64,000 nucleotides of DNA, taken from NCBI GenBank assembly GCA_017305715.1, contig JAFKKG010000014.1:186001-250000 (forward strand). Reading direction: 5' to 3'. Below the pieces are notes generated by a model, which had not been told where the DNA came from, searched no databases, and was given only the letters and a program-made list of their open reading frames with translations. This document shows, piece after piece, positions 53,930 through 56,730 of this stretch; position 1 is the stretch's first letter, and every line of letters begins with the position of its first letter. Source of the stretch: Hyphomicrobiales bacterium (GTDB lineage: Bacteria > Pseudomonadota > Alphaproteobacteria > Rhizobiales > Xanthobacteraceae). A program made the translations under genes and the position numbers.

Positions 53930-55069
53930 TCACGCGCGGCGGCTGACTTGGCCCGATTCCACGTCGAAAACCTCGCCGGCTGGGCCGATATCGGCGAACG
54001 CGGCCGGATCGGCGCCGGTCATCCAGACCTGTGCGCCGAGTTTTTCCAGCTCGTCGAACAGCGCCTTGCGCCTGTTCGGATCGAGATGCGCCACCACCTC
54101 GTCGAGCAGCAATAGCGGCACGATGCCGGTCATCTCGGCGACCAGCGTGGCGTGGGCCAGCACGAGGCCGATCAGCAGCGCCTTCTGTTCGCCGGTCGAG
54201 GCGTCGCGCGCCGGCATGTTCTTCGGGGCATAGACCACCTGCAGGTCGGTGGTGTGCGGTCCGTCCAGCGTGCGGCCCGCCGCGGCGTCGCGCGCGCGGT
54301 TCGCGCGCAGGATCTCGCGGTAGCGGTCCTCGACGGCGGTGGCGGTCTCGCCCACCAGCGCGTTCTCCATCCAGCCATCGAGCATGATCTGCGCCGAGGG
54401 AAATGCGGACGCCGCGCCGCGCGCGCGCAGCATCGCGGCGAGCCTCGTCACGGTCTGGCCGCGGGTGGCGGCGACCGCAACCGCAAGCTCGGCGGTTTCA
54501 CGCTCGATCGCGTCGCACCAATGGTCGTCGTAGTTGCGCACTTCGAGGAGGCGGTTGCGCGAGCGCAGCGAGCGCTCCAGCGCCGACACGCGGCTGGAAT
54601 GTTCGCTGTCGATCGCCAGCACCAGCCGGTCGAAGAAGCGGCGCCGCTCGGAGGCCGCCCCGAGAAAAAGCCCGTCCATCGCCGGGGTCAGCCACACCAT
54701 GCGCAGATGATCGCCGAAGGCCGTGGCGGAGCCGACCGGCTCGCGGTCGATCCGGCAGCGCCGGCTGGCGCCGCTGTTCTCATTCGCGGGCGCATCGATC
54801 CCGGTGCCCAGCGTCGCCAGCCCCAGTGCGCCCTCGACTTCGGCGGAAACCGCCCAGGAACCGTCGCCCTGATTGTCGGCAACGTCCTCCAGCGTGGCGC
54901 GCCGCAGACCGCGTCCCGGCGACAGAAACGAGATCGCCTCGAGGCAGTTGGTCTTGCCGGCGCCGTTCGGCCCCACCAGCACCACGACGTCGCCGCGCGT
55001 CTGCACGCTCCCCGCCCGGTAATTGCGAAAATGCGTCAGCGTCAGCCGTTGGATGCGCGAGGGGGTCAT
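53930..55069 (-). CDS. recF: DNA replication and repair protein RecF
   Basis: RecF is an SMC-like ATPase that loads RecA at gaps with RecO and RecR. The 379-residue protein has the opening RIQRLTLTHFRNYRAGSVQT, the Walker A VVLVGPNGAGKTNCLEAISF, FLSPGRGLRRATLEDVA, the ABC-type signature region ASTGEQKALLIGLVLAHATL and the Walker B PLLLLDEVVAHLDPNRRKAL with the D-loop. ATG at 55069. It is collinear with dnaN but separated from it by an inserted DUF559 element. Its stop is 13 bp from the convergent acyltransferase stop. Confidence 0.96.
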   Translation of the reverse strand: MTPSRIQRLTLTHFRNYRAGSVQTRGDVVVLVGPNGAGKTNCLEAISFLSPGRGLRRATLEDVADNQGDGSWAVSAEVEGALGLATLGTGIDAPANENSGASRRCRIDREPVGSATAFGDHLRMVWLTPAMDGLFLGAASERRRFFDRLVLAIDSEHSSRVSALERSLRSRNRLLEVRNYDDHWCDAIERETAELAVAVAATRGQTVTRLAAMLRARGAASAFPSAQIMLDGWMENALVGETATAVEDRYREILRANRARDAAAGRTLDGPHTTDLQVVYAPKNMPARDASTGEQKALLIGLVLAHATLVAEMTGIVPLLLLDEVVAHLDPNRRKALFDELEKLGAQVWMTGADPAAFADIGPAGEVFDVESGQVSRRA

Positions 55070-55105: not shown

Positions 55106-55582
55106 CCCTTCTCCCCTTGTGGGAGAAGGTGGCGCGAAGCGCCGGATGAGGGGTTCTTACGGCTCGGCGAGCTTTGCGAGAATATCCTTAAGGACAGCCG
55201 ATGGTTGTTGCAGCACATCGTTGTTCCAGTATCGCACGACTCGAAAACCTTCAGCCACTAAGAGGGCGTCCCTTGCCGTGTCGCGCCTGTTGTCCGCATG
55301 CTGGCTACCGTCGATTTCGACGATGAAGCGCTTTTCGAAGCAAACGAAATCGAGAATCAAGTTCTGAAACGGGACCTGCCGGCGAAACTTGAAGCGTTGG
55401 AACCGGCGGTCGCGAAGCAATCGCCACATCCTTGCTTCAGCATCGGTTGGATCGCGGCGCATCTTATTTGCGAAGTTGCGGATGCGCTTGGCGGCTGGCC
55501 GATGGTGTGGTGCTTGCGGCGCGAACCCCTCACCCGTCGCCGAACTGCGTTCGGCGCCACCCTCTCCCACAAGGGGAGAGGG
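55106..55582. mobile_element. Putative mobile element: DUF559 gene bounded by long inverted arms
   Basis: Left arm 55106-55153 (CCCTTCTCCCCTTGTGGGAG onward, ending GATGAGGGG) and right arm 55526-55582 (CCCCTCACCCGTCGCC to CACAAGGGGAGAGGG) are reverse complements with few mismatches and one loop-length difference. Each arm can also fold on itself. The 372 bp between them are almost entirely the DUF559 reading frame, and the inner borders are the same as in the gene-less element at 22636-22756. It fills 477 of the 542 bp between dnaN and recF. No clear target duplication is visible at the outer ends. Confidence 0.65.
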
Positions 55583-55615
55583 AAGGTCGCCGTTCGTTTC
55601 GCGAGAAACACTCAC
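55157..55615 (-). CDS. DUF559 domain protein (predicted PD-(D/E)XK / Vsr-like endonuclease)
   Basis: Up to 152 residues. The DUF559 core covers about 45-150: RNFANKMRRDPTDAEARMWR, FKFRRQVPFQNLILDFVCFE, KRFIVEIDGSQHADNRRDTA, then VVRYWNNDVLQQPSAVLKDI. The candidate active site is Asp89 (ILDF), Glu100 and Asp102 (VEIDG) and a nearby Gln/His, as in Vsr-type nucleases. The GTG at 55615 overlaps the dnaN stop; residues 10-31 (LPSPLVGEGGAERSSATGEG) are encoded by the right inverted arm. An ATG at 55462 would start inside the core, so the longer form or an unseen start in the arm is more likely. The stop lies 4 bp inside the left arm. Confidence 0.85.
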   Translation of the reverse strand: MSVSRETNGDLPSPLVGEGGAERSSATGEGFAPQAPHHRPAAKRIRNFANKMRRDPTDAEARMWRLLRDRRFQRFKFRRQVPFQNLILDFVCFEKRFIVEIDGSQHADNRRDTARDALLVAEGFRVVRYWNNDVLQQPSAVLKDILAKLAEP

Positions 55616-56730
55616 ACCCGCATCGGCATCAGCACGTAGAGTGCGCCCTTGTTGTCCTTGTCCTGCACCAGCGTCGGCGAGCCGGGATCGGCGAGGCGCA
55701 ACACGGCGACTTCGCCTTCGATCTGGGCGGCGATATCCAGGAGATACCGCGAGTTGAATCCGATATCGAGCGCGTCGGAGGCGTATTCGACCTCGAGTTC
55801 CTCGGTGGCGCTGCCGGAATCCGGGTTGGTCACCGACAGCACCAGCTTGCCGGCCGACAGAGCCAGCTTCACGGCGCGGCCGCGTTCGCTCGAAATGGTC
55901 GAGACGCGGTCGACCGCGTTCTCGAAATCCTTCTTGTCGACGATCAGTTCCTTGTCGTTGTTCTGCGGAATGACGCGGCCGTAGTCCGGGAAGGTGCCGT
56001 CGATCAGCTTCGAGGTCAGCACCACATTGCCGAGCGTGAAGCGGATCTTGCCCTGCGACAATTCGATCGAGACCTCGGCGTCATTGTCCTCGATCAGCCG
56101 CTGCACTTCGCCGACGGTCTTGCGCGGCACGATCACGCCGGGCATGCCGACGGCGCCCTTGGGCAGCACGAGATCGATCTGCGCCAGACGGTGGCCGTCG
56201 GTCGCGACCCCGCGCAAGGTCGCGGCCTTGGCGCTGCCGGCCGAGTGCAGATAGATGCCGTTGAGATAATAGCGGGTCTCTTCGGTCGAGATCGCGAACT
56301 GCGTGCGGTCGATCAGGCGCTTGATGTCGGAAGCGGCGAGCGAGAACGAATGCGTCATGTCGCCGGCGGCGAGATCCGGGAAATCGCTTTCCGGCAGCGT
56401 CTGCAGCGTGAAGCGCGAGCGGCCGGCGCGGATCGCCAGCACCGAACGGTCGCCGTCGGCCTCCAGCACGATCTGCGCGCCGTCGGGCAGCTTGCGGACG
56501 ATGTCATAAAACATATGCGCCGGCACGGTGGTCGAGCCACTGGTCGCGGTTTCCGCCGCGAGCGTCTCGGTCACCTCGAGGTCGAGGTCGGTCGCCTTCA
56601 GCGACAGCTTGGCGTTTTCGGCGCGGATCAGCACGTTGCCGAGGATCGGAATGGTGTTGCGACGCTCGACCACGCGATGGACGTGGCCCAGCGATTTCAG
56701 GAGTTGCGCGCGTTCGACGGTGACCTTCAT
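55612..56730 (-). CDS. dnaN: DNA polymerase III beta subunit (sliding clamp)
   Basis: The ring-shaped processivity clamp of the replicative polymerase. The 372-residue protein has the three-domain architecture: domain 1 begins MKVTVERAQLLKSLGHVHRV, VERRNTIPILGNVLIRAENA; domain 2 includes LSDFP-equivalent LPESDFPDLAAGDMTHSFSL and KRLIDRTQFAISTEETRYYL, NGIYLH; domain 3 ends with the conserved YVLMPMRV. The ATG at 56730 is used; the frame is open much further upstream without support. It follows dnaA by 318 bp and is followed by the DUF559 element and recF. Confidence 0.97.
   Translation of the reverse strand: MKVTVERAQLLKSLGHVHRVVERRNTIPILGNVLIRAENAKLSLKATDLDLEVTETLAAETATSGSTTVPAHMFYDIVRKLPDGAQIVLEADGDRSVLAIRAGRSRFTLQTLPESDFPDLAAGDMTHSFSLAASDIKRLIDRTQFAISTEETRYYLNGIYLHSAGSAKAATLRGVATDGHRLAQIDLVLPKGAVGMPGVIVPRKTVGEVQRLIEDNDAEVSIELSQGKIRFTLGNVVLTSKLIDGTFPDYGRVIPQNNDKELIVDKKDFENAVDRVSTISSERGRAVKLALSAGKLVLSVTNPDSGSATEELEVEYASDALDIGFNSRYLLDIAAQIEGEVAVLRLADPGSPTLVQDKDNKGALYVLMPMRV

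Follow-up and report, generated by a model that had tools for sequence, protein, structure and literature searches.

In the window (the whole 64,000-nucleotide stretch analysed here) we found a gene of the DUF559 family between inverted palindromic arms, and this arrangement, a nuclease gene inside palindromic arms, proved to be general. Its architecture, its recurrence over phyla, the existence of gene-less arm pairs, the co-occurrence of gene and palindrome, purifying selection on the gene and its presence or absence at fixed sites are established. Together they suggest that DUF559 acts on the palindromes and may cut, move or maintain them. We consider it rather likely that the gene makes up, with the palindromes on either side of it, a selfish (or semi-domesticated) element of two parts, similar to a REPtron, in which the nuclease acts on its own palindrome. 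Bacterial genomes commonly contain REP-like palindromes, and DUF559, a widespread domain of unknown function, is now tied to a palindrome class of many phyla.

The unit (55107-55582) sits between two host genes that we take, from homology and synteny, to be recF (53930..55069, minus strand) and dnaN (55612..56730, minus strand). The DUF559 open reading frame (55157..55615, minus strand) has a GTG start as listed, where its 5' end overlaps the dnaN stop codon, and its conserved domain covers about 55169-55486. The left arm (55107..55156, plus strand) consists of two hairpins (55107-55129 and 55131-55143) followed by a tail, GGATGAGGGGTTC, pointing towards the gene. The right arm (55523..55582, minus strand) is inverted relative to the left and lies within the reading frame, with its tail at 55523-55537 and its hairpins at 55538-55556 and 55560-55582. 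Positions 55107-55142 and 55547-55582 were 86% complementary over 36 nt, and 55139-55156 and 55523-55540 were 89% complementary over 18 nt. The sequence-only reading, which had described a DUF559 gene enclosed by inverted arms in the dnaN-recF gap, was therefore correct on this point. It was also right that the frame runs into one arm: the 5' part of the frame crosses the right arm, and the stop codon abuts the left. Folding of the arm sequences bore out its further statement that each arm is itself a hairpin, with two hairpins and a tail per arm; for all four arm sequences folded, none of 200 shuffles folded as well as the real arm (z −3.66 to −6.19).

The Pfam search assigned the protein to DUF559 (E 1e-35, residues 44-149), with MTES_1575 below its cut-off and no other family. 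Invariant residues of the domain, including D89, E100, D102 and H106, are kept in the window protein in an alignment of 26 sequences. The predicted fold had a mean pLDDT of 83.8, with values of about 60 in the arm-coded N-terminus. A fold search returned a solved DUF559-family structure, 3hrl, as its best match (E 3e-8) and the homing endonuclease I-Bth0305I as its second (E 1.2e-3; profile match E 0.0041); Vsr ranked 19th (E 0.15), and the protein scored 13.8 bits with the curated Vsr model, short of the cut-off of 97.85. The window protein is accordingly predicted to be a small PD-(D/E)XK/Vsr-like nuclease and not a Y1 HUH tyrosine transposase. VsrA, a DUF559 protein of Caulobacter, is described as required for an SOS response when a cytosine methylase is absent (PMC12907096), which suggests nuclease activity in vivo.

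The arms also occur elsewhere in the host. A search of the 7.45-Mb genome for the 16-base arm core, CTCCCCTTGTGGGAGA, with up to two mismatches gave 48 matches, compared with one for the reversed pattern. As counted from the match list, 34 of these form 17 pairs, all head-to-head in one order (plus then minus), and 14 are single. Sixteen pairs are spaced 96-122 bp apart and have no room for a gene; the seventeenth, at 452 bp, is the window unit. When the left arm was aligned with 11 short pairs, the match extended over 51-70 columns in eight (the closest being 51/51, 55/55, 53/54 and 54/55), over 36 columns in one, and over merely 23 bases in two. The best gene-less match, 55/55, lies at locus L007. 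The window unit looks like a short pair in which the loop has been replaced by a gene. The host genome contains four DUF559 matches, and the three strong ones (L001, L002 and L003, the window copy) are all flanked by inverted palindromic arms, which fall into three subtypes. The weaker fourth match (L004), in a 400-codon frame, has no arms and may use the domain differently, in a non-mobile role.

Pairing of DUF559 genes with palindromes

We scored inverted arms by local alignment of the 300 bp upstream of each locus with the reverse complement of the 300 bp downstream, setting the threshold at a score of at least 40. In the genus, 27/33 best-per-genome DUF559 loci reached this threshold; by site, and with the host's own copies counted once, inverted arms were present at 24/28 dnaN-recF loci and 14/14 trpB-trpA loci. 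The threshold was likewise reached by 15/30 best and 10/20 lower-ranked loci of the class, by 12/28 loci of the phylum (6/15 outside the class), and by 58 of the 80 matches listed, from named genomes of many phyla, among 576 confirmed relatives. Summed over these five sets, 122/191 loci carried inverted arms, with 25/50 class loci and 16/28 phylum loci falling below the threshold. Outward-shifted control windows reached it in 0/68 cases for the genus (counted from the listing), 0/60 and 0/20 for the class, 0/56 for the phylum and 1/208 for the named genomes. Judged by record titles, the armed named loci come from alpha-, beta-, gamma- and deltaproteobacteria, Chloroflexi (SAR202), Aminicenantes and Planctomycetota, although single assignments may be wrong because many of these records are metagenome bins. 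The searches of the genus, class and phylum gave loci of the best matches, about one per genome, except for the lower-ranked loci (20 DUF559 and 20 GIY-YIG), which were chosen by hand; the named and unnamed sets may overlap by a few loci.

A looser test, for a perfect pyrimidine-stem hairpin within 200 bp, placed a pyrimidine-rich palindrome beside 166/186 DUF559 loci from the genus to other phyla, on both sides in 98, compared with 4/174 control windows and 0/174 on both sides. Short flanks led to the omission of 1/33 genus loci, 4/80 named loci and 12 control windows. The bordering of DUF559 genes by such arms, proposed from a single locus, thus holds widely. Chance was rejected as the origin of the pairing on the basis of the shifted windows, reversed patterns and shuffles. 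Selection bias through the arm-coded residues of the query was rejected as well, since matches starting at residue 38 or later were armed as often (24/33) as the others (34/47). Among plasmids, 31 of 72,556 records matched the window protein, all at less than 60% identity.

The arms belong to one recognisable class that varies with the protein. The DUF559 core and both flanks were found in 75 genus loci, and among the 60 armed loci used for comparison, arm similarity tracked protein similarity (Mantel rho 0.54, p 0.001). Median arm similarity was 0.35 for paralogues of the same genome and 0.85 for cross-genome pairs with similar protein. Arm and protein subtypes therefore go together.

We then scanned 289 alphaproteobacterial genomes for the hairpin CTCTCCC-(2-8)-GGGAGAG, defining a strong DUF559 match as one with E below 1e-20. 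At least three copies were present in 52/72 genomes with a strong DUF559 match and in 15/217 of the others. The total number of copies was 1324 in the former and 165 in the latter, compared with 10 and 23 for the reversed control. The Fisher p value of 3e-27 is a guide only, as it overstates independence because the genomes are related. Exceptions occurred in both directions: 15/72 genomes with a strong match had no copy of the searched hairpin, and 11 genomes lacking any DUF559 match, as well as four with a weak one, had at least three copies. The shared arm core and this co-occurrence sustain the idea of a palindrome family with a long, gene-bearing copy and gene-less relatives; the part of that idea in which DUF559 moves or maintains the family stays a matter of interpretation.

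The pairing was specific when nuclease and transposase loci of the genus were compared within 250 bp. A DUF559-type palindrome was found at 27/28 DUF559 loci, with GTAG and CGTC REPs at 0/28 each; Y1_Tnp loci (RAYT-type and other) had GTAG REPs at 17/28 and a DUF559-type or CGTC palindrome at 0/28. In two broad sets of GIY-YIG loci, a strictly defined CGTC tag was present at 7/29 and 8/20, GTAG at 3 and 1, and the DUF559 type at none. Windows placed 900 bp further out served as controls, except for the 20 lower-ranked GIY-YIG loci, which were too short; the sole palindrome in them was GTAG, at 1/28 DUF559 and 3/28 Y1_Tnp loci. Losses to short flanks in this comparison were 5/33 DUF559, 2/30 Y1_Tnp and 1/30 GIY-YIG loci. 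As a yardstick, 16/28 Y1_Tnp loci of the same genomes reached the inverted-arm threshold, measured with 500-bp rather than 300-bp flanks and with 2/30 left out for short flanks. A RAYT was rejected as the mover of the DUF559 palindromes. The single, weak Y1_Tnp match of the host genome (E 1.3e-4, L391) is flanked by GTAG and has no DUF559-type motif within 500 bp, and the 28 genus Y1_Tnp loci had no DUF559-type palindrome within 250 bp, with a short motif within 500 bp at 2/28 (L388 and L393).

Presence and absence at trpB-trpA and dnaN-recF

Two gene junctions were compared across 60 genus genomes, the host's own included. At trpB-trpA, the two genes overlapped by exactly 4 bp in 39 genomes, were separated by a 0.5-kb DUF559 unit in 15 and by gene-less repeats (175-241 bp) in four, and could not be assigned in two. 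One conserved junction thus either carries the DUF559 gene or lacks it precisely, as is characteristic of homing endonucleases. Both trp genes are whole where the unit is present, which places TGA on either side of it; a target-site duplication would look like this, but selection on surviving insertions could give the same picture. In one genome (L295, G053), no trpB lies within reach upstream of trpA, and inspection by eye suggested that this region may contain DNA of an insertion sequence and a pair of gene-less repeats.

The dnaN-recF gap contained DUF559 in 30 genomes (four partial), a GIY-YIG nuclease in 13 and neither in 16, with one gap unreadable; none of the readable gaps held both genes. 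The gap is highly variable across the genus rather than invariant. In the window it measures 542 bp and would be about 66 bp if the unit were removed, close to the 65 bp or so given by the sequence-only reading, but a clean empty gap was not seen in any of the 60 genomes when repeats were judged by eye, and the shortest of 57 gaps measured was 75 bp. Empty sites expected in relatives were therefore not encountered: all 16 gaps lacking DUF559 or a full GIY-YIG gene keep CGTC or GTAG repeats or their remnants, and three also keep a relic DUF559-type arm. DUF559 units, GIY-YIG units, and repeats of the CGTC or GTAG type appear to have taken turns in occupying the gap. In the genome with the highest recF identity to the host among 59 sampled congeners (L066, G012), the DUF559 gene of this gap has decayed (the best aligned piece being 27 residues) and the arms are still visible.

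On a recF+trpA species tree, at least 16 changes at the trp site and at least 25 at the recF site were required, and the occurrence of DUF559 was patchy, differing even between sister species. Median dN/dS of the DUF559 genes was 0.085 at the recF site (26 genes) and 0.083 at the trp site (15 genes), demonstrating strong purifying selection; the host genes gave 0.122 at both sites. Four of the 30 recF-site genes were too short for this analysis, and dS was not usable in 128/325 recF-site and 2/105 trp-site pairs. DUF559 dN correlated with host dS (Spearman 0.46 and 0.74 at the two sites), indicating that the unit is mostly inherited with the host at both. The history of these sites thus includes prolonged residence followed by loss, or else recombinational replacement, with repeated homing at most hypothetical.

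Outside the recF and trp sites, 23/26 DUF559 genes in complete genus genomes point with the replication fork, taking recF as the origin proxy. We draw no conclusion of a replication-strand bias from this, as sites shared between genomes were retained and the overall count of 26/36 is distorted by the genes of the recF gap, which sit immediately ahead of the proxy.

Possible modes of action of the DUF559 nuclease

If the element is indeed of the two-part kind that we favour, the nuclease would nick or cut at the foot of an arm hairpin, probably once the hairpin has been extruded or has become single-stranded at the fork. The arm-bounded piece would then be copied to a new place by repair or replication, and the gene-less pairs would be copied in trans. 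REPINs are dispersed gene-less doublets that share a REP palindrome. The DUF559 palindromes are similarly dispersed as doublets, the host having 16 short pairs in addition to the window unit. REPtrons (REP-RAYT; PMC3733652) resemble the DUF559 unit in that a small enzyme gene lies inside inverted palindromes and that enzyme and palindrome subtypes are paired. They differ from it in their enzyme, an HUH tyrosine transposase rather than a PD-(D/E)XK/Vsr-like protein, and in the GTAG tag, which was present within 250 bp at none of the 28 DUF559 loci. MITE families with an autonomous parent offer another parallel, as an arm-bounded long copy with a gene is accompanied by numerous short ones that share its arm core; unlike a MITE parent, DUF559 is not a transposase of a known class, and each of its arms itself forms hairpins.

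A homing-type selfish gene, in which DUF559 cuts the unoccupied allele of a gene junction and the unit is copied from an incoming homologous chromosome, is an unlikely alternative. The palindromes would then be accessories of repair or recognition. Such a gene would account for the state of two junctions across the genus, which are either occupied or, in the case of trpB-trpA, exactly empty, and for the differences between sister species. I-Bth0305I, matched in the fold search, shares with DUF559 a similar catalytic fold, that of a homing family, and presence or absence at fixed sites; unlike DUF559, it is intron-encoded (its PDB name is 'mobile intron protein'), and we know of no palindromes flanking its gene that also occur dispersed. 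Homing-endonuclease and transposase/DUF559 repeats of Legionella have also been proposed as hot spots of intragenomic recombination (PMC12308824). However, homing alone does not explain the 16 dispersed gene-less pairs, and the divergence of DUF559 is largely congruent with that of the host.

Strong purifying selection and the need for VsrA in the Caulobacter SOS response without cytosine methylase (PMC12907096) would also be expected of a host Vsr-like repair nuclease, beside which the palindromes serve as terminators or regulatory sites and are spread by something else, such as a tyrosine transposase. In other taxa, some tyrosine transposases are described as bordered by inverted repeats that bear GGGGWSAS (PMC3733652), and by our own reading the DUF559 arm tails GGGGTGAG and GGGGAGAG would fit this motif; our Y1_Tnp comparison was confined to the genus. 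We nevertheless regard this explanation as improbable, given the patchy occurrence of the gene even between sister species, the palindromes that track DUF559 over genomes, the low score with the Vsr model, and the mutual exclusion within 250 bp of DUF559-type palindromes from 28 Y1_Tnp loci and of GTAG from 28 DUF559 loci, tempered by the two Y1_Tnp loci with a motif within 500 bp. That DUF559 is a passenger, which landed in the arms by chance or rides another element, is very improbable. The 11 genomes with repeated hairpins and no DUF559 match are in keeping with a passenger, but the excess of palindromes beside DUF559 loci over controls and the matching of arm and protein subtypes argue against it.

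GIY-YIG nucleases and CGTC palindromes

The CGTC class of REPs has been characterised by its CGTC tag, a stem of 8-9 bp and a CCA tail, occurring mostly as head-to-head dimers and mostly in alphaproteobacteria (PMC3733652). That 2013 survey associates an enzyme with the GTAG class alone among REP classes and ties the CGTC class to no transposase. CGTC REPs resemble the DUF559 arms in their predominantly head-to-head dimers and in their occurrence in the dnaN-recF gap of congeners. They differ from them in tag, stem and tail, and adjoin a GIY-YIG nuclease instead of DUF559.

The GIY-YIG subfamily of the recF gap was matched in 116/289 genomes in a class-wide search. We took the best 30 loci, of which five were left out for short flanks. 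A CGTC- or TGTC-tagged palindrome lay within 300 bp of 24 of the remaining 25 loci, on both sides in 17, compared with 0/25 controls; inverted arms were present at 15/25 and in 0/50 controls. None of the 16 best broad GIY-YIG matches (L095-L110) had inverted arms. These results suggest the GIY-YIG nuclease as a candidate partner of the CGTC REPs, a class for which the survey reports no transposase association (PMC3733652). Among the titles and abstract openings listed from open-licence papers, we found no description of a DUF559-palindrome or GIY-YIG/CGTC pairing, which may exist elsewhere; DUF559 is named in 14 of these papers, and none names GIY-YIG together with repetitive extragenic palindromic sequences.

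There is perhaps an even chance that living off bacterial REP palindromes is a widespread strategy of small nuclease genes. Three or more unrelated folds (HUH/RAYT paired with GTAG, GIY-YIG with CGTC, and DUF559 with pyrimidine-rich palindromes) would each have given rise to a self-spreading unit, a single nuclease gene between its own hairpins, with gene-less pairs as parasites and the units competing for the same intergenic sites. Both new pairings are directly testable, as the proteins are small and the DNA hairpins short. One dnaN-recF gap of 149 bp (L325, G002) resembles, by eye, a GIY-YIG unit minus its middle and is possibly a gene-less derivative.
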